A DNA stretch of 64,000 bases, taken from NCBI GenBank assembly GCA_025041195.1, contig JAKCFM010000001.1:2170001-2234000 (forward strand). Direction: 5' to 3'. This stretch comes from Halobacteriales archaeon YIM A00013. Its GTDB lineage: Archaea; Halobacteriota; Halobacteria; Halobacteriales; Haloarculaceae. The notes below the pieces were generated by a model, which did no database searches, was not told the origin of the DNA, and was given only the letters and a program-made list of their open reading frames with translations. Positions 46,265 through 61,268 of the stretch are shown in pieces (the stretch's first letter is position 1; each line of letters opens with the position of its first letter). A program made the position numbers and the translations under genes.

Positions 46265-47608
46265 TTACAGCGACCAGTTGGTCTCCACTCTATCGGGGGC
46301 ATCGACAACGATAACGTTCTGGGAGAACTTCTCGATCCGCGTCGTGACCGGACTTTCGCCGCTGCGTTTTAACGCACCCCACGGCGAGAAATGCGAAATG
46401 ATCGTCGGGTCTCGATTGAAACAGACGCGTGCAGTTGACGCTTTGAGCGTGTCGAGATACTGCTCAGGCGTCTCCGAGAAGATCGTCATGCTCAAACCGT
46501 GTTCACGACGGGTGAAGAACGATTTGACCGCGTCGATCGAGTCCCACGTATCGTACCACGCACACGGACCGAACAGTTCGCTCGTCTCCATTCCATCCTG
46601 GAACTGAAGGAGTTGGACGGGACTGTCATCGAGCACAACGAACGGTTCGGCGTCTGGTGCGTGGGCGCTGACTGTGCGTGCCACGTCAGTAGTTTCGGCC
46701 TGTGGGTCGCCGGGAGTAACAGTCTGGAGCTGCCGATCTAACTCTGCCTCGAATTCGTCTGCAACTGCCTCGCTCACGAGGAGCCCTGAAGGGGTCGAAC
46801 ACAGCTGACCGTTGCATCGAGTCAGCGCGCGAACAAACGTCTGTGCAGCCGTTTCGGGATCACTATCAACGACGAACACGCCATTACCCTCGCCTTCAAC
46901 ATTGCTCTCGATTCCAGCGTTTGCCGCTGCTTCTTTGATCTCCGGATAGTAATTGCTACTCCCTTCATAATGCAGCAGATCGAACCGTGAGAGAATCTCA
47001 GAGTCATAGATGATCTCCGGTTCGGTGAACACCATATTCACACGATCTTTAAACCGTTTGAAAAAAGGAGCAAGCAGTACGGCTGCAGATGCTGGCGTCC
47101 GTGTCGAGGGGCGCACCGTCACGTCGTTGCCCGCCACGAGCGCCGATGCGACGTTCACCGGAGCGAGAATTGTTGCATTGCGTGGCGTGACCATCAACAC
47201 GTGTCCAATCGGCCGAGAAACGGTCTGCACACGCCGGTCGTGCTCGGTCGTCGCGTTATAATCGAGGCCATCCACCGACTCATCTTGGAGATGCTGTGCG
47301 TACGTACGCAATCCCGAAAGATACCGTGGAATGCTATCGATCCGGTCGAAGCAGTCCGAAAGCGGATAGTCGGTTTCTTCACACAAGACCGCAGCGTATT
47401 CCTGGCGGTTCTCCTGATATACCGCTGCGATAGCCTCGAGCTCGCTGAACACGTCAGTCGGGCGTGCCTTGCTGGTCTCGATCGCTTCGAACGCGGACGC
47501 TCCAGCGTATCCGATCGACGTCCCTCCCTTTTCTCGCAATTCGTCGTGTGTGTACTGACCATCTACAAACGATTCAACTGGTTCGGATAACATCGTGATT
47601 TGTGACAT
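46265..47608 (-). CDS. Aldehyde dehydrogenase family protein
   Basis: A 447-residue NAD(P)-dependent dehydrogenase. The catalytic Cys is C270 in R-C-N-G-Q-L-C-S-T-P. The general base Glu is probably E238 or E240 in N-V-E-G-E-G-N, in place of the more usual E-L-G-G motif. The cofactor strand V-T-P-R-N-A-T and the P-S-T-R-T-P segment match the family's T-P-W-N and K-P-S-E positions. It is shorter than classical 490-residue ALDHs. It is the most 3' gene of the aromatic cluster and could oxidise an aldehyde released after ring cleavage, as the ALDH domain of PaaZ does in phenylacetate degradation. The substrate is inferred only. Confidence 0.85.
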   Translation of the reverse strand: MSQITMLSEPVESFVDGQYTHDELREKGGTSIGYAGASAFEAIETSKARPTDVFSELEAIAAVYQENRQEYAAVLCEETDYPLSDCFDRIDSIPRYLSGLRTYAQHLQDESVDGLDYNATTEHDRRVQTVSRPIGHVLMVTPRNATILAPVNVASALVAGNDVTVRPSTRTPASAAVLLAPFFKRFKDRVNMVFTEPEIIYDSEILSRFDLLHYEGSSNYYPEIKEAAANAGIESNVEGEGNGVFVVDSDPETAAQTFVRALTRCNGQLCSTPSGLLVSEAVADEFEAELDRQLQTVTPGDPQAETTDVARTVSAHAPDAEPFVVLDDSPVQLLQFQDGMETSELFGPCAWYDTWDSIDAVKSFFTRREHGLSMTIFSETPEQYLDTLKASTARVCFNRDPTIISHFSPWGALKRSGESPVTTRIEKFSQNVIVVDAPDRVETNWSL

Positions 47609-47691: not shown

Positions 47692-48654
47692 TCAACGAAT
47701 AGCAGCAATGCCGTCGAGAGATTCTCGGTCGTGTGATGTGCCGAACGATTGTACTGGTCCGACGGGGACAATTCCGGAGGGGTTAATGTCGGGGTGGCTC
47801 CGGAAGTAGTGTTCTTTGATGTGGTCCATATCGACCGTCCCGGCCACCCGAGGAAGCTGGTAGAGATCCCGTGTGAATCCCCAGAGATGGTCGTACTCAA
47901 CGAGGCGGTGGCGGTTACACTTGAAGTGGGTGTAATAGACGGCCTCAAACCGAACGAGCGTTACGAACAGCCGCAGATCCGCCAGCGTTAGCTGTTGTCC
48001 GACGAGAAAACGCTGTTCTGCAAGCCGTTGGTCGTACCGGTCGAGCGCCTCGAACAGCCCGGCGATAGCTGTCTCATACGCCGACTGTGTGTCTGCGAAC
48101 CCGGCCCTGTAAACGGCCGTGTTGATTGCTCCGTATAGGTCTTCGATGGTCGTGTCGATCTCTGTCCGCAGCGCCGAGGGATAGAGATCAATACCTGCCG
48201 TCTCGGCTAAGCTGGAGGCGAGTTGGCGCATGATTTCGACCGACTCGTTGTTGACGATGGTTTCGTTTTCGGTATCCCACAACACCGGTACGGTCACTTT
48301 GCCAGTGTAGTTAGGTTCAGCTGCAGTGTACAGCTCCCGGAGATAGTCGGCCCCGATCTGTGATTCGGAGGTACAGCCCGATTTCTCGGGGGTAAACTCC
48401 CACCCATCGGTTCGTCGGTGAGGATCAACGATATCCATCGAGAGTGTGTCTTCACAATCAAGTAACGCCCGAACGAGCACCACCCCATGGGCCCACGGAC
48501 AGGCCCTGGAAACGTACAGATGGTATCTGTCCGGTTCGATCGGATGGGCCTCCGTTCCAAGCGAGGCGCGAAACGCTGTGGGCTCACGCTCACGCTCAGG
48601 TGTGTTGTCCAATTCGTCGGCGGTTCTCCACGTTCCATCGATCAATTGTCCCAT
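47692..48654 (-). CDS. Glutathionyl-hydroquinone reductase-like / ECM4-YqjG family GST
   Basis: A 320-residue Xi-class GST relative. The redox Cys is C52 in Y-V-S-R-A-C-P-W-A-H-G, with G in place of the usual R after C-P-W-A-H. Y-L-R-E-L-Y and the V-P-V-L-W-D thioredoxin-fold end follow. The C-terminal helical domain has R-F-L-V-G and L-A-D-L-R-L-F-V-T-L-V-R-F, typical of the family. These enzymes reduce thiol adducts of hydroquinones. Haloarchaea use gamma-glutamylcysteine, so that thiol may be the partner. The start is M-G-Q-L-I-D-G, seven bases after the stop of the DsbA-like gene, so they form an operon. Confidence 0.9.
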   Translation of the reverse strand: MGQLIDGTWRTADELDNTPEREREPTAFRASLGTEAHPIEPDRYHLYVSRACPWAHGVVLVRALLDCEDTLSMDIVDPHRRTDGWEFTPEKSGCTSESQIGADYLRELYTAAEPNYTGKVTVPVLWDTENETIVNNESVEIMRQLASSLAETAGIDLYPSALRTEIDTTIEDLYGAINTAVYRAGFADTQSAYETAIAGLFEALDRYDQRLAEQRFLVGQQLTLADLRLFVTLVRFEAVYYTHFKCNRHRLVEYDHLWGFTRDLYQLPRVAGTVDMDHIKEHYFRSHPDINPSGIVPVGPVQSFGTSHDRESLDGIAAIR

Positions 48655-48661
48655 CTGTGGT

Positions 48662-49465
48662 TTACTCCCAGAAGATCCCCGATCCGCGTTCGATTCGTGT
48701 GACGTGACCATCGTCAGCGAGTGTTTCGAGTCGGTCGAGTGCGTCCTCATGTGAGAGGCCATACACCTCTTCGACCTCCCGGGTGGCAACACGTCTGAAC
48801 ATATCAAGGAATTCGACGAGTGCTGGGGGCTCACGCTGGTCCAGAGTGGGGTCGACCGTTGTAAGCGCAGTCACGATCGCTTTCGTAGACTGATAGCCAC
48901 GAAGCAGTCGTCGGTTTTCGCCGTTTTTGACGAGGTACGACGGAAACGCCTTCGCCCCGGTTTGGAGTGTGCGTCTCATGTCCGCTTCAAACGCCTCCCG
49001 TGCGCGTTCGCTCGCGAGATCCTCGCGGAACTGTTCGACATCAAGGCCAACCTGTCCGGCGAGTTCGGCCAGTTCATCTGGCTCTTCGGGGGTGTATCGT
49101 TCCGAAGCCCCAGCTTCACGGAGCCGCCGAAGATAGCTGTCAGCAAGCGCCTGGCTCTGGAACTCGGCTGCCTTGTACGCGATGTTCGCGGGATGGCTCG
49201 AATTGAGCGGATCTTCGAGCCATACACCGGCATCAACCGGCATTCCGTGGCGCTCGGCCGCCTCTTCCCAGTGTGGCGAAACATCCGCAGGGGTGCGAAT
49301 TCCGTTGGCACGGTCGTGGAACGTCTCGAAATCCTCAACCAATCCACCCATCACGAACTCTCGCTCGATCTGATCACCGAAACGAACGCGTATGTTTCGG
49401 AGCATCGGCTCCGAGCCCCACGACCACGTGCAAAACGGATCTGTGAAACAGACCAGTGAGGTCAT
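48662..49465 (-). CDS. DsbA-like protein with CxxS active site and C-terminal winged helix (copy 1)
   Basis: A 267-residue protein of the DsbA/COG3531 type. It begins F-T-D-P-F-C-T-W-S-W-G, so the active motif is C12-x-x-S15, with the second Cys of CxxC replaced. A helical insertion has the M-G-G-L-V-E-D and A-A-E-R-H-G-M-P-V landmarks, and the fold closes with A-F-P-S-Y-L, the cis-Pro strand. After about residue 210 a winged-helix segment follows (A-T-R-E-V-E-E-V-Y-G-L-S-H-E-D-A-L-D-R-L). No signal peptide, so it acts in the cytosol. Immediately downstream of doxX and before the GST. CxxS proteins cannot oxidise dithiols alone but can form mixed disulfides or isomerise; a thiol-sensing regulator is possible. 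Confidence 0.82.
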   Translation of the reverse strand: MTSLVCFTDPFCTWSWGSEPMLRNIRVRFGDQIEREFVMGGLVEDFETFHDRANGIRTPADVSPHWEEAAERHGMPVDAGVWLEDPLNSSHPANIAYKAAEFQSQALADSYLRRLREAGASERYTPEEPDELAELAGQVGLDVEQFREDLASERAREAFEADMRRTLQTGAKAFPSYLVKNGENRRLLRGYQSTKAIVTALTTVDPTLDQREPPALVEFLDMFRRVATREVEEVYGLSHEDALDRLETLADDGHVTRIERGSGIFWE

Positions 49466-49882
49466 TTACAGTCCAACTCCAATAGCGTACGGCCAATCGA
49501 TGCTCGCAAGGCTCGCAAAAACCAGTGCGCCACCGGCCAAGCCCACATTTTTCAGGAAATGGATCTGCTCGTTCTGACGATCCATCCCCTCGGCGTTCCA
49601 GAAGTCGTGCATGATGGGCGTGATGGCGACCAGAAAGCCTAGGATGGCCAGCGCACCGACCAGTGGATACACGCCGACCAATACCGATATCGACCCCGCG
49701 ATGACCAGCAAGCTGACCACCGGGACCGACACTGATGGGAATGGTGCACCCTTGCTTCCGGCATACGCAACCATTCCGTCCAGATCAAGCAGGTTGCCAA
49801 CTGCCAGGTATCCAAGTACCGCAGCGAACAGCACCCGACCGATGAGGAACAACTCACCGGATAGGCCCGCCGTGAACGCCAT
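49466..49882 (-). CDS. DoxX family membrane protein
   Basis: A 138-residue protein with four hydrophobic helices (about 8-28, 50-70, 71-90 and 108-130). It has the DoxX family features L-F-L-I-G-R-V-L-F-A, P-V-V-S-L-L-V-I-A-G-S and H-D-F-W near the third helix. Family members are linked to quinones, thiosulfate oxidation or redox defence. It is the first gene of a tight operon with the DsbA-like and GST genes. Confidence 0.85.
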   Translation of the reverse strand: MAFTAGLSGELFLIGRVLFAAVLGYLAVGNLLDLDGMVAYAGSKGAPFPSVSVPVVSLLVIAGSISVLVGVYPLVGALAILGFLVAITPIMHDFWNAEGMDRQNEQIHFLKNVGLAGGALVFASLASIDWPYAIGVGL

Positions 49883-50072: not shown

Positions 50073-50201
50073 TTATCCGAACTGCTCGAACGGTTCAGAA
50101 CAGTACTCACAGTAGTACAGCGTTCGACAGAGTGCAGAACCAATCTGCTGATGGAGACTAACGGCAGTGCCCTCACACACTGGACATATCACGTCACCCA
50201 T
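50073..50201 (-). CDS. PaaD-type zinc ribbon, encoded as a separate 42-residue protein
   Basis: This 42-residue protein (M-G-D-V-I-C-P-V-C-E-G) has C-P-V-C, a lone Cys in S-A-L-C-R and a final C-E-Y-C, with the Q-I-G-S-A and C-S-E-P-F-E-Q-F ending seen at the C-terminus of bacterial PaaD. In E. coli-type PaaD these residues are fused to the DUF59 domain. Here the DUF59 domain gene stops immediately upstream and the two overlap by one base (TAATG). It probably supports Fe insertion into, or electron transfer for, the PaaABC oxygenase. Confidence 0.8.
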   Translation of the reverse strand: MGDVICPVCEGTAVSLHQQIGSALCRTLYYCEYCSEPFEQFG

Positions 50202-50602
50202 TATTCTTTCATCATACTGTCTGATGGTTCCGTCGGCACCGCCAGTCCGAACTCGGTGAGTTCGTTTCGGCCGCGCTCGGTGATTCGTTGTGGTGTCCAT
50301 TCAGGTGTGTAGACGAGTGATACTTCGACAGTTTCGACCACGTCGGTATCACGAACAGCGTCGGTCACATCTGCACAGATTAGATCCCGGGCCGGGCAAC
50401 CGGAGTAGGTAAGCGTCAGGCTAATGGTTGCGACTTCCGCCGAGATTTCAACGTCGTAGATCAGCCCGAGATCAACGACACTAACCGGCAGCTCCGGATC
50501 TTCGACGGTTCGAAGCGCTTTCCAGATAGTACGTTCGTCGGCCGGAGCGTTTTCAAGTCGCCAGGGGAGGTCTGCAGGATAGGTACGGTCTTCGGCAATC
50601 AT
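50201..50602 (-). CDS. paaD: PaaD-like protein (DUF59/MIP18 domain)
   Basis: A 133-residue protein with the DUF59 fold. Seen features are V-E-D-P-E-L-P-V-S-V-V-D-L-G-L-I-Y (about 33-49), L-T-L-T-Y-S-G-C-P-A-R-D-L-I-C (conserved Cys) and V-E-V-S-L-V-Y-T-P-E-W-T-P. PaaD helps maturation of the phenylacetyl-CoA epoxidase, probably by delivering an Fe-S cluster or iron. The zinc ribbon that normally follows is encoded separately. It overlaps paaC by ATGA. Confidence 0.9.
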   Translation of the reverse strand: MIAEDRTYPADLPWRLENAPADERTIWKALRTVEDPELPVSVVDLGLIYDVEISAEVATISLTLTYSGCPARDLICADVTDAVRDTDVVETVEVSLVYTPEWTPQRITERGRNELTEFGLAVPTEPSDSMMKE

Positions 50603-51381
50603 GCGTGGTAGCCACTTGCTGGATGGTCCTTCGGGAGGTTCTCGGCGTGGATGCTATCGAGCAACTGCGTGAGATCAGCTGTATGCCCGCCGGTGCGGCC
50701 GTTGTGTTCGGGGGGGCTACCGGCAGCCGCTAGCGCCCCGTCAGAAACCTCGATCGGGAGACTGTCGATCGTCTCATCAACGGTCTTAAACCACTGATCA
50801 CGGAGTTCGTCAAATGGTATGCCGATCAACTCCGCAGACTGGTTGGTGATCGCAGGCTCGAACGAGAATAGGTCCGCACTCCGGGGTAAAAGCCGCTCAA
50901 AGGCGTTGCGCAGACGATGACGACCCTCTGCAGTCGAGACGAGACGAGCAAGCCATTGTTCTGCGTGTTCCCTGTGAAATATCTCCTCTGTAAGTATCGT
51001 ATTGGCCCGTCGAGCGATCGCTTCGTGGGCACCAGCACAAAGCGTTTCGAGCAGCTGTTGTTCGGCGGTATCATAGAGGAAGTTGATGACAATGGTATCT
51101 GCAAAGTCGGTGTGTTCTGTCTCGACGAGAACCGAATTTCGGCGCTCGTCCGGGCGCCGGTTGTAGCCAATGGCGTCGAGCGATTGGTCATCTTCCAGAA
51201 ACTCATACCAGAGTCGAGCATGGCCCATCTCGTCCTGTGCGATGCTTGAGAGAACATTGTCTTCTTCCATCGTCGGACCGACAGTCACCCACTCCGCATA
51301 GCGCTGGCTAGCGACAAACTCGTCGTCTGCAAGCGCCAGCAGAAGCTGCTCGACGGCGTCCGATCCACAGTGCACGCTCAT
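50599..51381 (-). CDS. paaC: PaaC-like subunit of CoA-ester ring epoxidase
   Basis: A 260-residue ferritin-like protein, the structural partner of PaaA in the PaaAC heterodimer. It has L-A-D-D-E-F-V-A-S-Q-R-Y, Q-D-E-M-G-H-A-R-L-W and L-T-E-E-I-F-H-R-E-H-A-E-Q-W. These correspond to the diiron-like helices, although PaaC itself is not catalytic. The C-terminal Q-L-L-D-S-I-H extension is acidic. ATGA overlaps join it to paaB and paaD. Confidence 0.92.
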   Translation of the reverse strand: MSVHCGSDAVEQLLLALADDEFVASQRYAEWVTVGPTMEEDNVLSSIAQDEMGHARLWYEFLEDDQSLDAIGYNRRPDERRNSVLVETEHTDFADTIVINFLYDTAEQQLLETLCAGAHEAIARRANTILTEEIFHREHAEQWLARLVSTAEGRHRLRNAFERLLPRSADLFSFEPAITNQSAELIGIPFDELRDQWFKTVDETIDSLPIEVSDGALAAAGSPPEHNGRTGGHTADLTQLLDSIHAENLPKDHPASGYHA

Positions 51382-51653
51382 GGGCTGCCTCCTGTCTCTG
51401 CGTACCACGAAACGTTTCGGTACTCTCGGTCGATCGTCGGCGTAAGCGTGGCATCGTCGGCTGTTGTCCGGCCGATCGCATTCTGTGGCATCACCCAGAT
51501 GCTCACCGGCTCGTTCCGAACATCCACGTTGCGCTTTGCCAACGAAAGAGCCATCTTCGTGTCGGATGCCGTCACCGTGATTGTGTGTTTGTGGGACTCC
51601 CCACGCTGCCACTGCACGAACACCTCGAACGCCTGCATCGTGTTATCTGTCAT
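51378..51653 (-). CDS. paaB: PaaB-like subunit of CoA-ester ring epoxidase
   Basis: A 91-residue small subunit. The F-E-V-F-V-Q-W-Q-R-G-E-S-H-K-H segment and the D-T-K-M-A-L-S-L-A-K-R-N helix are the PaaB signature, and the V-W-V-like strand is followed by I-W-V-M-P. It bridges PaaAC units in the complex and is required for activity. It overlaps paaC by four bases and sits four bases after paaA. Confidence 0.92.
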   Translation of the reverse strand: MTDNTMQAFEVFVQWQRGESHKHTITVTASDTKMALSLAKRNVDVRNEPVSIWVMPQNAIGRTTADDATLTPTIDREYRNVSWYAETGGSP

Positions 51654-51657
51654 TATA

Positions 51658-52623
51658 TCAATTTATTGTGTTAATAGAACCACTGTTCGTGAATCGGCTT
51701 GCTTTCTCATCTTCATTATATGCAACCATGGCTTCCCGGACCCAGGCAGTGTCTTCGAAGGCCGTCCTTCGTCTGTCGAGGCGTTGCTGTGTTTTTGGCC
51801 CATTACCAGAAACGATCGTGTTGAACTCCTCCCAATCCGGCGCGGTGTACTGCCACTTCTCGGCTGCGTCGTCGTAGTAGAAGTTCTCATCGGGAATTTC
51901 GATGTCGTATTTTCTGAGCTTTGGGACGTAGGTGTCGAAATATTGCTGGCGCAGTTCGTCGTTGGACTTTGGCTTGATGCCGAGTTCTACCATTCGTTTG
52001 CTTTTCTCGCTCTGATCATCGGAAAGCCCGAAGAACATCACCGCGCGAGGCCACCACCGATCGACGCCAGCCTGCAGACGCTCGCGTTTCGCTCGAGAAC
52101 CAGTCGCATACTCCCTGATAATATGCTCGCCATGGCGAATGTGAAATTCCTCTTCCCGACAGACACGCCGCATGATCCGCGCGTACGGTCCGTAGCTCGT
52201 GTCCATCAGCGAGTGCTGTAACTGCATCGCCGCGCCGTCGAGCATCCACGCTAGCAGTCCAATGTCAATCCATTCATCTGCCGGGTAATGAAACGCGTTT
52301 CCAAATCCGGTATTTCCGGCCAACAGTGACGTGAGCATCTCCTCACGATCCCGCCCTAAATTTTCGGCCAGCTGATACTGCATCTGGGCGTGACCGATTT
52401 CATCCTGATTCTTTGCGATGAGTGCGAGCTTGCGCTGATAACTGGGCGCCCGCGGAATCCACTCGCGCTCCGTGAATGCTCCCATGAACTCGCTGTTGGC
52501 CGTAAACTGAATGATACCACAGAGTAGGTCTCGATACTCGTCGGTGAGTGGATCACCTAACTCGATTATCTCCTCGTTTGCAAGCCGATCCTCGATCGAC
52601 AGCGTATTTTCTTCGATATGCAT
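51658..52623 (-). CDS. paaA: PaaA-like catalytic subunit of CoA-ester ring epoxidase
   Basis: A 321-residue ferritin-like diiron oxygenase. Iron ligands are carried on helices with N-Q-D-E-I-G-H-A-Q-M-Q and C-R-E-E-E-F-H-I-R-H-G-E-H. Regions W-M-L-D-G-A-A and M-F-F-G-L-S-D-D also match the family. PaaA epoxidises the aromatic ring of phenylacetyl-CoA using O2. In this cluster it is followed by paaB, paaC and paaD but not by the usual PaaE reductase. Its CoA substrate may be a different aromatic acid, because the upstream genes are trpE and trpG and a benzoate-type ligase lies nearby. Confidence 0.94.
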   Translation of the reverse strand: MHIEENTLSIEDRLANEEIIELGDPLTDEYRDLLCGIIQFTANSEFMGAFTEREWIPRAPSYQRKLALIAKNQDEIGHAQMQYQLAENLGRDREEMLTSLLAGNTGFGNAFHYPADEWIDIGLLAWMLDGAAMQLQHSLMDTSYGPYARIMRRVCREEEFHIRHGEHIIREYATGSRAKRERLQAGVDRWWPRAVMFFGLSDDQSEKSKRMVELGIKPKSNDELRQQYFDTYVPKLRKYDIEIPDENFYYDDAAEKWQYTAPDWEEFNTIVSGNGPKTQQRLDRRRTAFEDTAWVREAMVAYNEDEKASRFTNSGSINTIN

Positions 52624-52632
52624 AGTTTTGAT

Positions 52633-52953
52633 TTATTTCAATTGGATGTGGATTTCAGTGCCCTCCCGAACAATGTCAAAAGTGGGGACTTTGAGATCAC
52701 TGAACGTTGATTTTCCCGATTCGATATCGAAACGCCAGGAGTGAAACGGACAGGCAATCTTCGGAGTGTCACTCTCCATATCGTTCGGTGTCGATACGTA
52801 TCCCTTTCCCAGGGGGGCACCCATATGTGGACACCAGTTTTTGAAGGCGTGATAGGTGCCGTCGTGGTTGATGATGGCAATTTCGGTGTTTTCAACCCGT
52901 ATAAATCGCCGCTCTCCCGGCGGGAACGCTTCAACGGTGATCGTCTCACTCAT
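52633..52953 (-). CDS. Rieske-type [2Fe-2S] ferredoxin
   Basis: A 106-residue single-domain Rieske protein. Cluster ligands are C41/H43 in W-C-P-H-M-G and C68/H71 in C-P-F-H-S-W. It resembles NirD- or dioxygenase-type ferredoxins and has no membrane anchor. Placed between trpG and paaA and overlapping trpG by four bases, it probably carries electrons to the PaaABC oxygenase, a job done by PaaE in bacterial clusters. No reductase gene is nearby, so a general ferredoxin reductase would be needed. Confidence 0.92.
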   Translation of the reverse strand: MSETITVEAFPPGERRFIRVENTEIAIINHDGTYHAFKNWCPHMGAPLGKGYVSTPNDMESDTPKIACPFHSWRFDIESGKSTFSDLKVPTFDIVREGTEIHIQLK

Positions 52954-53576
52954 AGCTTTTTATTCTTCATACGTGTCAATGACTGGAGGAAATTCCGGAT
53001 GATGTCGTGTCCAGGCGTAGTGAGTATGCTCTCGGGGTGAAACTGCACACATTCGATGGGGTACTCCTGGTGGCGGATTCCCATAACGAGCGAGTCGGAT
53101 TCGGTAGTTGCCGACACCTCGAAGCCATCAGGAATATCCGTTGCGAGTAGCGAGTGGTACCGGCCAGCTTCAAATCCCTGCTCGATCCCCGCAAATACCC
53201 CCTTCTCGTCGTGAACGACTGACGAGGACATTCCGTGGACGGGATATGGAGCGTGGTCAACCGTGCCACCATAGGCGTAGATTGCGGTTTGGAGCCCGAG
53301 GCAGACACCGAGCGTCGGGATGTTCGTGCTTATCTCCCGGAGAACGTCGAGCGAAACGCCAACATCTCGCTCGTTTTTTGGGTGACCTGGACCCGGACTG
53401 ATAACGATTGCGTCGGGATCTGCACTCCGGACAGCTGCCAACGAGATCGTGTTCTGAACCACGTCTGTATTCGCCCATTGGCTGACGTACTCTACCAGGT
53501 TGTACGTGAACGAATCGTAATTATCAATGAGCAACACATCTGATCTGGGACGGCTCCGAGGGGTCGCGACACTCAT
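52950..53576 (-). CDS. trpG: Anthranilate synthase glutamine amidotransferase subunit
   Basis: A 208-residue class I glutamine amidotransferase. The opening V-L-L-I-D-N-Y-D-S-F-T-Y-N-L is the family start. The nucleophile Cys is in L-G-V-C-L-G-L-Q-T (the usual G-H-Q is G-L-Q). The His/Glu pair is in F-H-P-E-S-I, and the oxyanion loop S-P-G-P-G-H-P is present. It feeds ammonia to the TrpE subunit. Overlaps of four bases at both ends tie it to trpE and to the Rieske ferredoxin. Confidence 0.92.
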   Translation of the reverse strand: MSVATPRSRPRSDVLLIDNYDSFTYNLVEYVSQWANTDVVQNTISLAAVRSADPDAIVISPGPGHPKNERDVGVSLDVLREISTNIPTLGVCLGLQTAIYAYGGTVDHAPYPVHGMSSSVVHDEKGVFAGIEQGFEAGRYHSLLATDIPDGFEVSATTESDSLVMGIRHQEYPIECVQFHPESILTTPGHDIIRNFLQSLTRMKNKKL

Positions 53577-55147
53577 TGTACTTGTGGGGAGGTAATGGGC
53601 TGATTATCGTCTGGCATCTGGATGCTATCAAGAGCACTGAGGACGCCACCGAGTTTCTGTTCAGTCTCTTCGTACTCGCTATCTGGATCGCTATCATCGA
53701 CGACACCAGCACCAGCGCGGACGGTAATGTGGTCGTTCTCACGGTGTTCGATCGTCGCGGTTCGGATTGCGATCGCGAAATCCATCTTGTCGGTCCAGGA
53801 GAAATATCCGACACCACCGCCGTAGATTCCCCGTGGACTCGCCTCAATCTCGTCGATAATCTCCATTGCTCGTACCTTCGGTGCCCCCGACAGTGTTCCG
53901 ACGGGAAACGTCGCTGCCAGTGCATCGAACATGTCGTACTCAGAATCCAATTCGCCTGTGACGACGCTCTCGATATGTTGTACTGTGGTGTATTTGACCA
54001 CGTTCATGAACTCATCGACAGAAACGCTCCCAGGACGAGCCACCCGACGAACGTCGTTTCTGGCCAGATCAACGAGCATAACGTGTTCTGCTTGCTCTTT
54101 TTTATCAGAGAGAAGATTACCGGCCGCACTGCGATCTTCGATAGGACACGAACCACGTTGGCACGTTCCCGCCAGCGGATTTGATCTGATTGTCCCTTCC
54201 TGTACCGACACCAACGTCTCGGGACTCGCGCCGATCACGGACCGATCACCGAACTGAAGGAGGTACATGTATGGTGAGGGATTTTCTGCTCGAAGTCGCT
54301 CATAGAGGGCGTATGGATCCAGAGTTCCCTCGTAAGTCCGCTCTCTCGAAATTACCCCCTGGTAGATGTCACCATCAACGATGTGCTGTTTTGCGTTTCT
54401 CACCGCAGAACAGTACTCCCTTCGAGGACTACTGGTCGAACCAAGACACTCGAACGGTTCTGTCTCAAGCGTTGCCCCATCTAGTCGATCCACAACGCGC
54501 GCTATCTCTTCCACACACCGGTCATACAATCGGTCAGGATTGTCCTCGGGGTGGACTACCGGCGTGAACACTAGCGATGGGTGATGTTTGGTGTGATCAA
54601 AGACAATGGTTTTTGTGTTCAATACGAACTGCGCATCAGGAAGGTCTCCCGTGTCGGGTTTGTCCACTCGCTGATCGAGCCAGATATCATACACCGCATC
54701 ATACGACAAAAATCCTACTAAACCACCTTCGTACGGTGATTCTTCCGTCTCGAACGTCGTGTCAGCATCCGGAACGCTGTCTCTCAGCGTCTCGATCGTG
54801 TTATCGCCGTCAGCGGTGATGAGATCAGCGTATCGAGGGTCGTTGATCTCGATCGTGGCATCGTTGTCTGTGACGCTGATGGCTGCTGCCGGTTCGTATC
54901 CTATATAGGAAAAATGACGGTGGTCCACGGCGCCGGTCGCAGAAAACGCCCCGTCTGGATTTGTCGAAGATACCTTCTGTCCGTTTTCTAGAAGAAACGA
55001 GTAACCGCTGGCAGTCGTATCAGCCAGGGCCGCGTAGGCCGTCAGAGGATCAACGGACACCGGTAATTCGCTGGTGAGACGAACAACTACTGTCTCATCA
55101 GTATCGGCTTGCTCTTGGAACTGTTCGCGAGTGAGTGAAACGTTCAT
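53573..55147 (-). CDS. trpE: Anthranilate synthase component I (chorismate-binding), with altered feedback motif
   Basis: A 524-residue chorismate-using enzyme. The N-terminal regulatory part has F-L-L-E-N (residues 51-55). In tryptophan-inhibited TrpE this motif is L-L-E-S, and mutations of that Ser remove feedback control. The catalytic half has D-G-D-I-Y-Q-G-V-I-S-R, N-P-S-P-Y-M-Y-L-L, G-A-S-P-E-T-L-V, S-N-P-L-A-G-T, D-L-A-R-N-D and F-P-V-G-T-L-S-G-A-P-K. These are typical of anthranilate synthase and make a PabB or isochorismate role less likely. It is translationally coupled to trpG and followed by oxygenase genes instead of trp biosynthetic genes, so the anthranilate is probably used in this cluster. 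Confidence 0.9.
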   Translation of the reverse strand: MNVSLTREQFQEQADTDETVVVRLTSELPVSVDPLTAYAALADTTASGYSFLLENGQKVSSTNPDGAFSATGAVDHRHFSYIGYEPAAAISVTDNDATIEINDPRYADLITADGDNTIETLRDSVPDADTTFETEESPYEGGLVGFLSYDAVYDIWLDQRVDKPDTGDLPDAQFVLNTKTIVFDHTKHHPSLVFTPVVHPEDNPDRLYDRCVEEIARVVDRLDGATLETEPFECLGSTSSPRREYCSAVRNAKQHIVDGDIYQGVISRERTYEGTLDPYALYERLRAENPSPYMYLLQFGDRSVIGASPETLVSVQEGTIRSNPLAGTCQRGSCPIEDRSAAGNLLSDKKEQAEHVMLVDLARNDVRRVARPGSVSVDEFMNVVKYTTVQHIESVVTGELDSEYDMFDALAATFPVGTLSGAPKVRAMEIIDEIEASPRGIYGGGVGYFSWTDKMDFAIAIRTATIEHRENDHITVRAGAGVVDDSDPDSEYEETEQKLGGVLSALDSIQMPDDNQPITSPQVQ

Positions 55148-55293
55148 TGGTCAGCCCCATAGGGCGTAAAATCGTACGTTCCAAACATATATTCACAATG
55201 TCTGGATATTGCTGCTATTCCGTTCGTAATACGGCATCCAATAATGTGTGTTTCTACTGTATAGTGCATATCAGTTGATTGTTGAACATCCAT
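55144..55293 (-). CDS. 49-residue small protein at the head of the trpEG-paa operon
   Basis: A short frame beginning M-D-V-Q-Q-S-T-D-M-H and ending F-T-P-Y-G-A-D-Q, with two Cys. Its TGA overlaps the trpE ATG (ATGA), like the other gene joints of this operon, which supports translation. The composition is not especially acidic. There is no run of Trp codons, so it is not a classical Trp attenuation leader. Function unknown; a later Met at residue 9 is an alternative start. Confidence 0.5.
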   Translation of the reverse strand: MDVQQSTDMHYTVETHIIGCRITNGIAAISRHCEYMFGTYDFTPYGADQ

Positions 55294-55425
55294 TCTGTAA
55301 TCTAGAATTTGTATCTGTATAATATATAATTCATGTTTATTGGATGTTAGCAGGTGTGCATAGAACAACCTAGTAATTATCTCACACCATCAACTGAAAA
55401 ATTATATTCAAATCTTTGTTGTTAT

Positions 55426-56541
55426 TTATATATCGAGCACATCGAGCGCGTTTTCGCCGAAGATTTTCCGTTCAGCAGCTTGATCGAGCTTGGGAATCGT
55501 GAGGATAGTCGGGTAGTCGAAATCAAGGTGGGGAAAGTCACTCGTGTACAGTAGTGAGTCCACTCCGACCATCTCGATAATTTGTTTCAGGTTGATGCTT
55601 CCGGCGGGATCTTCGAGTGGCTGAGTTCCCCAGTAGAACTGCTCTCGGACGTATTCGCTCGGTTTTCGGTCGAGGTGAGGGAGATGTTCGCTTCGTCGCT
55701 CATAGTTTTTGTCCATCCGACCGATCAGCCATGGGATCCACGTGACTCCACCCTCCAAAAAGATGTGTTCGACATCGGGAAATCGTTCGGGAAGCCCCTG
55801 GAAAACGATGTTGGAGACGAGACTCATCGCCGCCTGGTTATATGCAGCAATGTTAGCAACGTCGGACTGAAGGTTAGGAGCACCATACAGCTGTCCCCAC
55901 GGAGGATTCGGGAACGAGGGATGATAGTCCATTGGTAAACCAACCTCCTGGGCGGCCGCAAAGATCGGTGCACACTGGGGATCACCCAACAGCGTATTTG
56001 ATGAGAAGTTAGCATGTACCGACACCATATCGTCCTCATCACCGAGCCGCCGAATCTCTGCAGCAGATTTTTCGGGGGCCTGAGGGGCGATACGGATCGA
56101 CCCTTTCAACCCATCATTGCCATCAAGGAAATTATCGAGAAGGTAGTCGTTGTATGCCTGACAGAGTGCAATCGCAAAATCCTGTTCTGGGACATCAGTG
56201 ATTCCTTCCAGTTGATGGCCGTGAAGTACGACGTAATCCGTGTTAAAACGGTCCATAAACGCCTGAATCCCTTCCGGGGTCGTCGTCTTGATCTCATCGC
56301 CAAGTTCGTGAGGGGTCGGGTCCAGATCGAATGGAAACGATCCAACCAACGAACGGGTGAGCGGATCGTCCGTCGTGAGCTGGTGCTTGACCCTGTCTTT
56401 GTACGGTTCGGGAACATACTTTGCAAACTCCGTCGAATAAGCGACGATTTCGTGAACGTCACTGTCTACAACCGTGTATTCTGCTATTCGATCGAGTGCA
56501 TCAGTCGTTGCCTCGTAACCGTCCGTTTGTTTAATAGTCAT
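55426..56541 (-). CDS. Amidohydrolase family protein, ACMSD / gamma-resorcylate decarboxylase-like (A)
   Basis: A 371-residue TIM-barrel metal hydrolase of the amidohydrolase-2 (ACMSD) branch. The N-terminal motif is V-D-S-D-V-H-E, where the usual H-x-H is D-x-H. Later landmarks are M-D-Y-H-P-S-F-P (metal His), F-L-E-G-G-V-T-W-I and the final L-Y-T-S-D-F-P-H-L-D with the catalytic Asp. Family members decarboxylate or hydrolyse aromatic or ring-opened acids, such as the product of 3-hydroxyanthranilate cleavage. A TAGATATA promoter box is 61-68 bases upstream. It is adjacent to the trpEG operon and to a similar enzyme. Confidence 0.88.
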   Translation of the reverse strand: MTIKQTDGYEATTDALDRIAEYTVVDSDVHEIVAYSTEFAKYVPEPYKDRVKHQLTTDDPLTRSLVGSFPFDLDPTPHELGDEIKTTTPEGIQAFMDRFNTDYVVLHGHQLEGITDVPEQDFAIALCQAYNDYLLDNFLDGNDGLKGSIRIAPQAPEKSAAEIRRLGDEDDMVSVHANFSSNTLLGDPQCAPIFAAAQEVGLPMDYHPSFPNPPWGQLYGAPNLQSDVANIAAYNQAAMSLVSNIVFQGLPERFPDVEHIFLEGGVTWIPWLIGRMDKNYERRSEHLPHLDRKPSEYVREQFYWGTQPLEDPAGSINLKQIIEMVGVDSLLYTSDFPHLDFDYPTILTIPKLDQAAERKIFGENALDVLDI

Positions 56542-56635: not shown

Positions 56636-57004
56636 CTATTCTCCTGGCTTTTTCTCAGCGATCGTTTCGTCGCCTGCGGCGTTTGGTGCGCCAACAACGA
56701 GGAGCGTCGAGCGATCGTCTGCAGAGACACGTCGCCATGAAGCTGGAGGGACGGCCAGAAACTCCCCCGGTGACAGCGTCCAGTCCGTCTCGTCAACCTC
56801 AATGGTCACCCGTCCATCGATCAGGTAGTAGAGTTCTTCCTGTTGTGCGTGGTTATGCAAACTATTCGTTTCGCCTGCTTCGTACAGCCACACGTTTGGT
56901 CGCATTTGCTCGGTTTCGAGTGAGTAGCCGACGGATTTGAGCGACGGTTCGACGCCGTCCAGTTCGATTGCTTCGAGATCTGCAAGATCGACTCGTGTGA
57001 CCAT
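56636..57004 (-). CDS. Cupin domain protein
   Basis: A 122-residue single cupin. The metal motif is visible as L-H-N-H-A-Q-Q-E-E-L-Y-Y (H-x-H-x(3-4)-E) and a less complete second motif near P-P-A-S-W-R (the His is replaced). It overlaps the upstream amidohydrolase B stop by one base (TAATG) and is followed by amidohydrolase A. It may be a dioxygenase, an isomerase or a sensor for a pathway product. Confidence 0.88.
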   Translation of the reverse strand: MVTRVDLADLEAIELDGVEPSLKSVGYSLETEQMRPNVWLYEAGETNSLHNHAQQEELYYLIDGRVTIEVDETDWTLSPGEFLAVPPASWRRVSADDRSTLLVVGAPNAAGDETIAEKKPGE

Positions 57005-58053
57005 TATACTCCGTACACCTCCTGGGCGTTCGTTCGGAGGATGCGCTTGCGATCTATGGCATCCAATGTCGGTAGCGTCTCGATATCGTCGGCGTTCCAG
57101 TAGGGATATCCGGATGCATAGAGGACGTTTTCGACACCGACCATCTCGAGATACTGCACAAGCAGTTCATCTGGAAGCGCGGCCAGCGAGTAGGTCGTCA
57201 CCCAGCAATTGTCAGTAATATACTCGTGTGGTTCGCGTTGGATGGATGGAGAGAACTGTTCTAAATTCCGGTAGTATCGTGTCCCGCGCCATTTCGTCTG
57301 CGGGAGCCACCCAATGCCTTCCCCGGCCCAGACGACCGAAAGATCTGGAAACGAATCAAAGACACCCTGATACACCATACTCAACATGTTCGCCATATGG
57401 TTTTGGGCAAGGCTCGCATCGTAGGAGACGTGGTGTTCGGGAATTCCCCCCGCCGTCTGTCGGTGGACTGGATTCCCCGAACTGTGAACCGTTACGGCCA
57501 TTCCTGCCTCAACAGCCGCCTCGTAGATCGGGTAGTGATACTCGTGGCCCAGCGGGAGATCGCCCCCTCCGTAGAGCAACACGGTCACCATCTTCGGATC
57601 AGTGGCATATTTTCGGATCTCTGCGGCCGCAGCTTCTGGATTCTTCTGGGTCACGAGCACGCCACCTTTCAACCGATCAGACTCCGACAGCCACTCGCGT
57701 CTGAGAAGCTTGTTGTACGCCGAGGCAAGCGACGCTGCGTAGTCCGGATCGGGCTTTCCCGGCAGAAACTTCACCGCATGGCCGGTTAATATCCCTGTGG
57801 CAATTCTCCGTTCACGTGCGTACGTCTCAAACGTTTCCGGTGTGCGAAATTGTTCAGGTGCAACGTCTTCGTCCGTGTCCTCATTGAACGAAGCGTGATA
57901 CCATGGCAACGTCGGAACGAACGTACCACCGATCGGATCTTGGATTGCAGACTTGATTTTCAACCGGTCTCGCCACTTCGGATCCACAAGCTCGGACATC
58001 TTCTCAATGTTTACTGTCCATTGATGAAGACACGAATCCACAACATTTTCCAT
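57004..58053 (-). CDS. Amidohydrolase family protein, ACMSD-like (B)
   Basis: A 349-residue relative of the enzyme at 55426. The N-terminal metal motif reads V-D-S-C-L-H-Q, again lacking the first His. V-T-V-H-S-S-G-N-P and V-V-W-A-G-E-G-I-G-W-L-P are the middle landmarks, and the last is L-Y-A-S-G-Y-P-Y-W, where the expected S-D-x-P Asp is replaced by Gly. This suggests altered or lost metal chemistry, or a partner role for enzyme A. It overlaps the cupin gene by one base. The start is M-E-N-V-V-D, with an alternative Met four codons earlier. Confidence 0.85.
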   Translation of the reverse strand: MENVVDSCLHQWTVNIEKMSELVDPKWRDRLKIKSAIQDPIGGTFVPTLPWYHASFNEDTDEDVAPEQFRTPETFETYARERRIATGILTGHAVKFLPGKPDPDYAASLASAYNKLLRREWLSESDRLKGGVLVTQKNPEAAAAEIRKYATDPKMVTVLLYGGGDLPLGHEYHYPIYEAAVEAGMAVTVHSSGNPVHRQTAGGIPEHHVSYDASLAQNHMANMLSMVYQGVFDSFPDLSVVWAGEGIGWLPQTKWRGTRYYRNLEQFSPSIQREPHEYITDNCWVTTYSLAALPDELLVQYLEMVGVENVLYASGYPYWNADDIETLPTLDAIDRKRILRTNAQEVYGV

Positions 58054-58168
58054 CGTATTCACCACAACTCAGCAGACGGAGAAAATGTTTTCGGGTACAA
58101 ATTAATAGAATGGATATATATTCACACAGTCGTCATGGTTCGGGAACGACCAGAGAAGGATACATGTG

Positions 58169-59830
58169 CTACTCGCGTTCTCTTTCCCGGAGCAGATTTC
58201 GCTGTATTTTTCCGGATTCGGTCATGGGCAGTTCGTCGACGTATTCGATATCGCGTGGATATTTGTAGGGGGCAATCCGGTTTTTTACGTGATTTTGGAG
58301 TCGATTGGTCGTCTCAGGGGATGGTGAGTCCTCCTCGAGGATGACAAATGCCTTGACGATGGTTCCGCGCGTGTCGTCGGGGCTACCAACGACGGCAGTT
58401 TCTTTGACAGCGTCACACTCCTGGAGTACTTTCTCAATCTGTGGTCCAGGAACGTTGTAGCCACTGGTGATGATGAGGTCATCGCTCCGGCATTTGTGTT
58501 CAAACGAACCGTTTTCATGGTGGACAAAAATATCACCGGGAATTGACCAGCCATCCCTTACGGATTCTTCCTGTATTTCCGGCCGGTTCCAATACGACAC
58601 ACCGGTTGGTCCTCGAACCATGAGCAGTCCTGGTTCGCCACGATCGAGTTCTTCACCCGTTTCGGCGTCGACAACCTTACATTCATAGCCGGGGACGGGA
58701 TAGCCGGTGACCGACGGATCGACCGCATCGTCAACGGTGTGGCTGATGAAAATATGTAGCATCTCTGTCGTACCGATTCCATCTAGCAGCTTGATCCCCA
58801 GGTCCTCCTTCGCGCGGTTGTACGTGTCCGGTGTCAACGGCTCACCGGCACTGACTCCGATACGGAGCGAGGAGAGATCATATTCTGTTGCCGAGTTGTT
58901 CTTTTCCGACAGCATTTGATTGTATGCTGTTGGAACCGAGCCAAGCACGGTAATTCCGTACTGTTCGACGCCACTGAGAATCTTTTCTGGTGTCGCATCC
59001 TCGATGAGGCATGCGCTCGCGCCGAACCGTAGCGGAAATGCCGCGAGAAATCCATAGCCAAACGTGAATGCAAGTGGTGGGTTTCCACCGAACACATCCT
59101 CTGTACTCGGTGAGAGACAGTGTCGAGCGTAGGTGTCCGTAATAGAGAGAAGTTGTCGGTGGGTGTGTACGGTTCCTTTCGGCTGTCCGGTCGTCCCACT
59201 CGTATAAGCCAACAGCGCAATATCATCACGGTGGGTCTCGGAGACTACGGCGTCGGCAGATGCACCGCTGAGAAGTTCCGAATAACTCCGATAGTCATGA
59301 GTGATATCGTTGTTCTCGACGACAATAATTTCCTCCAAACCCGTCGCAGTAGCGTTGTCAACCGGTTCTAACAGTTCATCGTAGATGATCGCAAACCGTG
59401 CTCCCGAATCGTCGAGAACATATTCGATCTCCTCGGTCTGGAGGAGCTTCATCGATGGAACCGGGATCGCACCGATCTTCTGGATCGCTAAACAGGAAAC
59501 GATGTACTTCGGTCGGTTCGGAAACCGTATGAACACTCGGTCACCAGATTCGACACCGAGATCTAACAGCGCGTTTCCGAGCCGGTCAACCTGCTCACGC
59601 AGCTCTGCATACCTGATCTCCCTGTTTTCGAAGTGCACAGCGACATTTTCACCACGACCCTTCTCGACGTGCCGATCGACCATTTCAGTTGCTGCGTTGA
59701 GCTTCTTTGTATAATGAATCTCAGAAAGGCTGTACACTTCCTCGCTACTGTTGGCTGACGGAAGCGATTGAATTGCACTACTGATCTCTCCTCGCTCTTT
59801 TATCAGCGTGCCATCTGTTGGTTGTACCAT
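58169..59830 (-). CDS. Acyl-CoA/aryl-CoA ligase (benzoate or 2-aminobenzoate-CoA ligase type)
   Basis: A 553-residue ANL-family adenylating enzyme. It has the P-loop Y-T-S-G-T-T-G-Q-P-K-G, the aromatic-acid-ligase style Y-I-V-S-C-L-A-I-Q-K-I-G-A-I-P-V-P-S-M region, I-G-T-T-E-M (A5), I-P-G-D (A7) and the catalytic Lys in T-E-S-G-K-I-Q-R. It matches the benzoate- and 2-aminobenzoate-CoA ligase group in layout, but the exact acid is not readable. In this cluster it could activate anthranilate made by TrpEG for attack by PaaABC. A TAGATATA box is 27-34 bases upstream, at the TATA position. Confidence 0.9.
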   Translation of the reverse strand: MVQPTDGTLIKERGEISSAIQSLPSANSSEEVYSLSEIHYTKKLNAATEMVDRHVEKGRGENVAVHFENREIRYAELREQVDRLGNALLDLGVESGDRVFIRFPNRPKYIVSCLAIQKIGAIPVPSMKLLQTEEIEYVLDDSGARFAIIYDELLEPVDNATATGLEEIIVVENNDITHDYRSYSELLSGASADAVVSETHRDDIALLAYTSGTTGQPKGTVHTHRQLLSITDTYARHCLSPSTEDVFGGNPPLAFTFGYGFLAAFPLRFGASACLIEDATPEKILSGVEQYGITVLGSVPTAYNQMLSEKNNSATEYDLSSLRIGVSAGEPLTPDTYNRAKEDLGIKLLDGIGTTEMLHIFISHTVDDAVDPSVTGYPVPGYECKVVDAETGEELDRGEPGLLMVRGPTGVSYWNRPEIQEESVRDGWSIPGDIFVHHENGSFEHKCRSDDLIITSGYNVPGPQIEKVLQECDAVKETAVVGSPDDTRGTIVKAFVILEEDSPSPETTNRLQNHVKNRIAPYKYPRDIEYVDELPMTESGKIQRNLLRERERE

Positions 59831-60069: not shown

Positions 60070-60870
60070 TTAATCAGTATAGTACCAAAATGCACCGGGT
60101 TCTCGCTCGATTCGCTGAATTCGGCCGTCATCCCTGAGTGCCTCAAGCGCCTGTTCGGCTTTCGGCACCGAGATATCATACACTTCAGCGACTTCTCGTG
60201 TTGTTACTCGTTTATAGTGTTCGACGAACGCCTTTAGCGGCCGAAGGGAAGTCGCCTGCAGGGAGGGGGCAACCGTGGTAACTGCTTCCATAAAGTCCTT
60301 TGCTGGGCGATCGCCAACGATTTGAATGCTTTTCTCCGGACCAGAGATCTGATAGGTTGGGAACGCTGTGACGCCGTGGTCCTGGGTTCGATCGAGATCC
60401 TGCTGGAGTTGCTCGTGGGCGGTCTCGCTGGTGAGCACGCTCTGGAACTGATCACTGTCGTAGCCGGTCTCGGTAGCGAGATGAACGAGCACGGTCTGCT
60501 GTTCGATGTCTCTGTGCTCTGTCGCAATAACTTCTCGAAGCCGGCGAAGATAGCAGTCTGCCAGGGTTTCGTCCAGGATCTGGGCGGCTTTGTAGGCAAC
60601 GCTTGCGAGGTAGCTCGAATGCTGTGGCACTGAATTCCATTTTTCGACATTGATTGGCATGCCATATTGGCTAGCTGCCGTCTGCCAGTGAGATGCGACG
60701 TTCGAAGAAAAATCGCAGTCGTCAGTGTCTGTTAATCCACCCATCACGAACACCACGGAGATATGATTACGGTAGTGCTCACGGAGCAACTGGAGCGTCG
60801 TCTCAGCGTTCCACGACCACGCACAGAGTGGATCCGTAAACTGTGTGATCGTGAGCGGTTCCTCAGTCAT
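60070..60870 (-). CDS. DsbA-like protein with CxxS active site and C-terminal winged helix (copy 2)
   Basis: A 266-residue paralogue of the gene at 48662. The motif is D-P-L-C-A-W-S-W, so C16-x-x-S19. The shared landmarks are V-M-G-G-L-T-D, C-Y-L-R-R-L-R-E, A-F-P-T-Y, and a C-terminal winged helix with R-V-T-T-R-E-V-A-E-V-Y-D-I. The start M-T-E-E-P-L (60870) is chosen over 60942. Monocistronic, between the ligase and the HxlR regulator. The region 60871-61268 upstream has no gene. Confidence 0.8.
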   Translation of the reverse strand: MTEEPLTITQFTDPLCAWSWNAETTLQLLREHYRNHISVVFVMGGLTDTDDCDFSSNVASHWQTAASQYGMPINVEKWNSVPQHSSYLASVAYKAAQILDETLADCYLRRLREVIATEHRDIEQQTVLVHLATETGYDSDQFQSVLTSETAHEQLQQDLDRTQDHGVTAFPTYQISGPEKSIQIVGDRPAKDFMEAVTTVAPSLQATSLRPLKAFVEHYKRVTTREVAEVYDISVPKAEQALEALRDDGRIQRIEREPGAFWYYTD

Positions 60871-61268
60871 CACTGTGTCCGGACGATGAAACACTAGTCG
60901 ATGTGCTGTCTGCAGTTTCTGACTGTAAACTACTGTGTTCATCGCTTAGTGTTCCCCGTAAATGAGCTGTAAAGTCCATATCATACCCCAATACCCTCAA
61001 TCAATATAGGATTCATATAACTAATACGTAACTAGGCAAAATCGATTATATCTGGTGTGCCAGGGCTTACTACCCATTTAATAATAGCCAATACTAAGTT
61101 AGCTGAGAGAATATGTGAATTGAAAATAATCACCGAAAATCGGGACGTGCGCTTTTCTCAAAGAACGATGATTGGCAGATTACTCGGATACCCGAGCGAG
61201 TAAACAGAAGGATGTCAATATAACTGTGTGATTCAGTTCGTCCGATTATTTTTAAATGCTTCTGAAAA
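60871..61268. other. AT-rich intergenic region between DsbA-like copy 2 and the HxlR regulator
   Basis: About 400 bases with no supportable gene on either strand. It is clearly more AT-rich than the flanking genes. It would contain the promoter of the DsbA-like gene and the terminator of the regulator gene. I see no repeats of note. Confidence 0.5.

Follow-up and report, generated by a model that had tools for sequence, protein, structure and literature searches.

Why should the two components of anthranilate synthase, TrpE and TrpG, be encoded head to tail with a Rieske ferredoxin and the subunits of a PaaABCD-type oxygenase? The question is raised by a 64,000 nt stretch of contig JAKCFM010000001.1 from Halobacteriales archaeon YIM A00013 (the window), in which gene identities were assigned using Pfam and NCBIfam models, closest PDB matches, and motif reading. 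The coupled run sits inside a larger cluster of ~17 genes, spanning about 46.3–60.9 kb of the window. All 17 genes are found again, within about 18 kb, in Natronobiforma cellulositropha, a member of a different family, and the cluster is almost certainly conserved as a set. On balance, we think that it encodes a dedicated pathway for the oxidative consumption of anthranilate, most likely a biosynthetic one.

The gene cluster and its conservation

The tightly coupled run consists of eight genes on the minus strand, head to tail from 55147 to 50073. Read directly from the sequence, the joints between them are (i) ATGA for TrpE/TrpG, TrpG/Rieske, PaaB/PaaC and PaaC/PaaD, (ii) TAATG for PaaD/zinc ribbon, and (iii) short spacers of 9 bases (Rieske/PaaA) and 4 bases (PaaA/PaaB). 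The first-pass annotation had counted nine coupled genes. Eight of these stand, with the joints named for them; the ninth, an open reading frame overlapping the trpE start, matches no Pfam or NCBIfam family and is not conserved (Natronobiforma holds an unrelated nitroreductase at that place), and is probably not a gene. The features are as follows:

60070..60942, minus strand: FrnE_up, DsbA/FrnE-like thioredoxin-fold protein (PF13743/PF01323); adjoins PaaA in Natronobiforma
58169..59830, minus strand: AMP-forming aryl-CoA ligase, predicted anthranilate-CoA ligase (PDB 2V7B, 4WV3; F255-T256-F257)
57004..58065, minus strand: AH2_b, PF04909 partner subunit with degenerate metal site, AibH1-like (PDB and motif comparison)
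56636..57004, minus strand: small cupin (Cupin_2, PF07883), overlaps the AH2_b stop
55426..56541, minus strand: AH2_a, PF04909 catalytic subunit, predicted amidohydrolase-related dinuclear oxygenase (all AibH2 metal ligands present)
55144..55368, minus strand: small open reading frame overlapping the trpE start (no Pfam/NCBIfam match, not conserved)
53573..55147, minus strand: TrpE, anthranilate synthase component I, LLES changed to LLEN (TIGR01820 above cut-off)
52950..53576, minus strand: TrpG, glutamine amidotransferase subunit (NF041322 above cut-off; GVCLGL and FHPES motifs)
52633..52953, minus strand: Rieske [2Fe-2S] ferredoxin, CxH/CxxH (PF00355)
51658..52623, minus strand: PaaA-like di-iron oxygenase subunit (TIGR02156 above cut-off)
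51378..51653, minus strand: PaaB-like bridging subunit (PF06243; below NCBIfam cut-off)
50599..51381, minus strand: PaaC-like structural subunit (TIGR02158 above cut-off)
50201..50602, minus strand: PaaD, FeS_assembly_P (SufT-like) domain (Pfam/NCBIfam searches)
50073..about 50203, minus strand: PaaD zinc ribbon, separate small gene (PF23451; NF041869 partial)
49466..49882, minus strand: DoxX-family membrane protein (PF07681)
48662..49465, minus strand: FrnE_dn, DsbA/FrnE-like protein (PF13743)
47692..48654, minus strand: glutathionyl-hydroquinone-reductase-type glutathione S-transferase (GST), start inferred (closest PDB 6GZF, 3R3E (YqjG), 4FQU, 4USS)
46265..47608, minus strand: aldehyde dehydrogenase superfamily protein (PF00171)

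In the Natronobiforma cluster (locus L038; G267 contig 24, L072/L073) the genes are rearranged, at 50–85% identity to those of the window: AH2_a 85%, PaaA 81%, AH2_b 77%, TrpG and DoxX 75% each, aldehyde dehydrogenase 72%, TrpE and ligase 68% each, FrnE_dn 66%, GST 62%, cupin 60%, Rieske 58% and FrnE_up 50%. One run holds PaaABCD and AH2_a, and a second holds a nitroreductase, TrpE, TrpG and Rieske, while the ligase, AH2_b and cupin genes lie on the opposite strand. The coupling of trpE, trpG and the Rieske gene is kept in both genomes. Retention of the gene set through rearrangement, and between families, is strong evidence for a joint function rather than a chance neighbourhood. The first-pass annotation had read the translational coupling of paaABCD to trpEG as a sign of common function, and had suggested a synteny search of haloarchaeal genomes. 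Such a search does recover the set in a second genome, in permuted order; co-localisation is thus conserved, but the coupling of paaABCD to trpEG is not, the two lying in separate runs in Natronobiforma. The nitroreductase gene there (L038 14114–14785) overlaps the trpE start and has no counterpart in the window.

AH2_a occurs at comparable similarity in two of the 392 genomes of the order. It was found in none of six genomes of the same genus and in no viral contig scanned, nor did a search of the two families turn up another genome that carries it. G+C content is 53% in the cluster and 57% in the rest of the window, and in Natronobiforma the cluster is at 63% against 65–67%. The cluster is accessory, and probably also mobile.

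Anthranilate and its predicted CoA ester

Does the cluster make anthranilate, and does it use it? On the supply side, TrpE and TrpG score above the cut-offs of the archaeal TrpE and haloarchaeal TrpG models, respectively. The catalytic motifs of TrpE were located, including the His of QHIES, as were the Cys, His and Glu motifs of TrpG. Both cluster TrpEs have lost LLES, a motif belonging to the allosteric site for tryptophan (PMC6437058): it reads LLEN in the window and LFET in Natronobiforma, and is kept in all 30 other haloarchaeal TrpEs checked, including the window genome's own second copy. This suggests that feedback by tryptophan is relaxed in the cluster enzymes. Since some true anthranilate synthases are without LLES, its loss concerns regulation and not family membership. 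A duplicated trp operon was considered and rejected, because the window contains neither trpD nor trpF and a complete trpDFEG lies elsewhere in the genome.

On the side of use, the aryl-CoA ligase is about equally close to the benzoate-CoA ligase 2V7B and to the anthranilate-CoA ligase 4WV3 (AuaEII). In AuaEII, anthranilate is contacted by F220, T221, F222, A293, G318, C319, H324 and I325, with T221 binding the 2-amino group (PMC11253843). By alignment, F220-T221-F222, A293, G318, H324 and I325 are all matched in both cluster ligases. The nearest haloarchaeal ligases (58–60% identity; genomes G128, G134 and G120) instead carry F-A-Y, as do benzoate-CoA ligases, and two of the three adjoin PaaA/PaaC-like genes and an enoyl-CoA hydratase. 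This contrast of F-T-F with F-A-Y is the best single clue to the ligase substrate, and gives good support to its being anthranilate. Together with the loss of LLES, the pocket motif also makes anthranilate the likely entry compound of the pathway. Both points support the earlier proposal that anthranilate, or its CoA ester, is the compound acted upon.

The loci of two of the F-A-Y ligases (L118 4882–11519 and L119 7859–14495, in G128 and G134) combine divergent PaaA/PaaC/PaaD with a benzoate-type CoA ligase, an enoyl-CoA hydratase and a GNAT protein. Their Paa subunits are about 30% identical to those of the window, with Val at the position of Lys68. These loci are candidates for an archaeal benzoyl-CoA epoxidase route.

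Two predicted oxygenases and one Rieske ferredoxin

What might oxidise the CoA ester? PaaA of phenylacetyl-CoA epoxidase has the di-iron ligands Glu42, Glu72, His75, Asp126, Glu155 and His158, together with Lys68, the lid residue Lys103, and Phe108 (PMC4498308). The window PaaA keeps all six ligands, Lys68 and Phe108. The lid Lys103 is replaced by Gly in all four proteins of its type (window, Natronobiforma and two Natribaculum species), which form a clade of their own, separate from the phenylacetate PaaA of haloarchaea and bacteria. The window genome carries a separate, canonical paa locus. In the Natronobiforma assembly, a 96%-complete draft, neither a second PaaA nor a PaaK was found above noise, which makes phenylacetyl-CoA an unlikely substrate of the cluster enzyme. 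No PaaE reductase, PaaK, PaaG or PaaZ is among the cluster genes. It is unlikely that the cluster PaaABCD is a phenylacetate enzyme; its substrate is, with moderate likelihood, anthraniloyl-CoA. The earlier idea that this oxygenase epoxidises anthranilate or its CoA ester thus holds in part: the predicted activation and oxidation are supported, while epoxidation by PaaABCD is something we can only infer.

Three observations concern the Paa genes more widely. Firstly, the NCBIfam name of the gene at 50073–50203 is PaaE, although it is the PaaD zinc ribbon and not the PaaE reductase, so that automatic annotation masks the missing PaaE; a gene named paaE in the Haloarcula paa locus, of 55 aa, is likewise not a reductase. 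Secondly, PaaABCD of the window's clade (68–69%) occurs without trpEG on Natribaculum plasmids (L079, L080, L121), in an aromatic island where genes for FAA hydrolase, FAD monooxygenase, ring-hydroxylating dioxygenase, a cupin and an adenylate-forming enzyme lie close by; the PaaA clade is therefore not limited to one pathway. Thirdly, a third type of PaaABCD (47% PaaA) coexists with the canonical one in the genomes G047 and G113 (L010/L039, L009/L040), with a PaaK-like gene ~2 kb off in G047.

The second oxygenase, overlooked in the first-pass annotation, is predicted from AH2_a and AH2_b, whose closest PDB matches are 8SM6–8SM9 and AibH1H2. These belong to the amidohydrolase-related dinuclear oxygenases (AROs; PMC10811679, PMC10401708, PMC7782822), of which AibH1H2 is a pair of catalytic and non-catalytic subunits with a Rieske donor, AibG. 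AH2_a keeps all seven residues of the AibH2 metal site (Asp25, His27, His211, Glu265, Asp337, His340 and an acidic residue at 342, in the motifs SDVHE, DYHPS, FLEGG and SDFPHLD). AH2_b is without the first Asp, the Glu, and the last Asp with its His partner, and the same is true of its counterparts in Natronobiforma and G122. AH2_a is, with high probability, an ARO. We also considered the pair as ACMSD-like decarboxylases acting with the cupin as a 3-hydroxyanthranilate dioxygenase, in a kynurenine-type scheme. This was rejected: the PDB E value is 5e-49 for AROs versus 3e-6 for ACMSD, and the sole family match of the cupin is to Cupin_2, with none to 3-hydroxyanthranilate dioxygenase.

Which oxygenase does the Rieske ferredoxin serve? 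Its gene lies within 3 kb of AH2_a in the window. In G122 it is flanked by the two ARO subunit genes, in a neighbourhood free of Paa and Trp genes, and in G032 the same three genes are found together with CoA ligases. The ferredoxin most likely serves AH2_a/AH2_b, judging from these neighbourhoods. The first-pass annotation had grouped it with PaaABCD, a placement that is probably wrong, since it travels with the ARO where Paa and Trp genes are absent. For the same reason the ferredoxin is not favoured as a substitute for PaaE, though PaaABCD may use it as well. Its coupling to trpEG in both cluster-bearing genomes ties the ARO to anthranilate. The AibH1H2-like loci of G122 and G032 (L081 13644–16196 and L123 8915–19410) have features of their own: the G122 partner subunit has no intact metal site, and the G032 locus also holds a luciferase-like monooxygenase.

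The proposed pathway, its rivals and known systems

These pieces can be assembled into a route in which (i) TrpE/TrpG would convert chorismate to anthranilate, probably free of control by tryptophan, (ii) the ligase would convert it to anthraniloyl-CoA, (iii) the PaaABCD-type di-iron oxygenase would oxidise the CoA-bound ring to an epoxide or arenol, (iv) the AibH1H2-type ARO (AH2_a catalytic, AH2_b metal-dead), fed by the Rieske ferredoxin, would add one more oxygen, and (v) the cupin, aldehyde dehydrogenase, GST, two DsbA/FrnE proteins and DoxX might help to complete a reactive product, quinone-like or thiol-linked, or keep it in check. The sequence itself shows the identities of the genes, their catalytic residues and the conservation of the cluster; the route deduced from them is well supported for the ligase substrate, moderately for the PaaABCD substrate, and weakly for the order of steps and the product. 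In its full form—both oxidations as above, leading to a new metabolite derived from anthranilate, for instance an aminohydroquinone, aminotropone or thiol adduct, and the first such pathway in archaea—the proposal is tentative, with the odds somewhat against it.

Is the pathway biosynthetic or catabolic? No enoyl-CoA hydratase, thiolase, PaaZ or ring-opening gene is among the conserved cluster genes, but genes for handling quinones and thiols are; biosynthesis of an oxidised product, quinone-like or electrophilic, accordingly fits better than complete degradation, and would appear reasonably likely. Several points weigh against a biosynthetic anthranilate pathway. The position of AuaEII C319 is Thr in both cluster ligases, so that the pocket match is incomplete. 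Tryptophan is reported to inhibit one archaeal enzyme even though it has no LLES (Tang 2001, as cited in PMC5054487). The cluster has no recognisable ferredoxin reductase, exporter or natural-product hallmark gene; only two of the 392 sampled haloarchaeal genomes bear it; and the related Natribaculum PaaABCD lies in a catabolic-looking island without trpEG.

The alternative that best survives, though we consider it unlikely, is that these genes break down anthranilate, or an aromatic acid close to it, via CoA activation and hydroxylation, with trpEG either a passenger or a bypass that replenishes anthranilate for tryptophan once the ligase has depleted it. Catabolic pathways typically employ an aryl-CoA ligase, PaaABCD and an oxygenase, the aib cluster belongs to catabolism (PMC7782822), the Natribaculum relatives sit beside FAA hydrolase, FAD monooxygenase and cupin genes, and the cluster has an aldehyde dehydrogenase. 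However, the conserved set is without genes for ring opening, enoyl-CoA hydratase, thiolase or transport, a full trpDFEG is present in the genome, and fixing a synthesis gene pair inside a degradation cluster in two families would be uneconomical. Less probable still is that the activated acid is benzoate or salicylate, or that TrpE makes another product, for example aminodeoxyisochorismate. The ligase is equally close to 2V7B, and salicylate and isochorismate synthases, which are relatives of TrpE, also match, far below their cut-offs; yet the ligase carries F-T-F, and TrpE passes TIGR01820 and keeps true anthranilate synthase motifs, including the QHIES His. It is very improbable that PaaABCD merely duplicates the phenylacetyl-CoA epoxidase, with trpEG as a spare for tryptophan synthesis and their neighbourhood fortuitous: PaaA and PaaC do pass the phenylacetate NCBIfam cut-offs, with di-iron ligands and Phe108 kept, but clustering is conserved, permuted, in another family, its member Natronobiforma has no canonical PaaA or PaaK, and the cluster PaaA has its separate clade and altered lid. 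An ordinary phenylacetate locus was rejected on the same grounds of conserved clustering and the Natronobiforma gene content.

A dedicated anthranilate pathway would matter in several ways. Two unrelated dinuclear oxygenases share one conserved cassette with an anthranilate-type CoA ligase and the genes for anthranilate supply, a combination for which no described counterpart was found in the literature searched. Standard detectors miss the gene clusters for specialised metabolites of archaea, of which few are known. If the proposal is true, the Paa family gains a new substrate, and AROs are brought into an archaeal aromatic pathway.

How does the cluster compare with known systems? It resembles phenylacetyl-CoA epoxidase, PaaABC(D)E, in having homologues of PaaA, B, C and D, the di-iron ligands, the Lys68 bridge and Phe108. 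It differs in its separate clade, the Lys103 to Gly change, the lack of PaaE and of nearby PaaK/G/Z, and the linkage to trpEG and an aryl-CoA ligase. With the three-component monooxygenase AibH1H2/AibG and other AROs it shares two PF04909 subunits, one with all AibH2 ligands, and a Rieske gene close by; unlike them, it is archaeal, has a partner without a metal site and a cupin gene between the subunits, and has no AibF-like reductase that we could find. The tropone clusters trl and tda likewise join chorismate-supply genes to Paa-type ring oxidation for biosynthesis, and tda includes a GST-family gene (PMC7497051). Those clusters start from phenylacetate and use host paa genes, whereas the cluster described here has anthranilate supply, its own PaaABCD and no PaaG, with neither enoyl-CoA hydratase nor PaaZ among its conserved genes. 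It lacks the PaaG/PaaZ step towards a seven-membered ring precursor and is not classed as a tropone cluster. In the aurachin and PQS pathways (AuaEII, PqsA), as predicted here, an AMP-forming ligase makes the CoA ester of anthranilate, with F-T-F contacts in AuaEII; there the ligase step is followed by polyketide-type extension, which the cluster does not have. Finally, the aerobic bacterial 2-aminobenzoyl-CoA pathway also activates anthranilate with CoA before the ring is oxidised, but it relies on a flavoprotein monooxygenase/reductase where the archaeal cluster has PaaABCD and an ARO.

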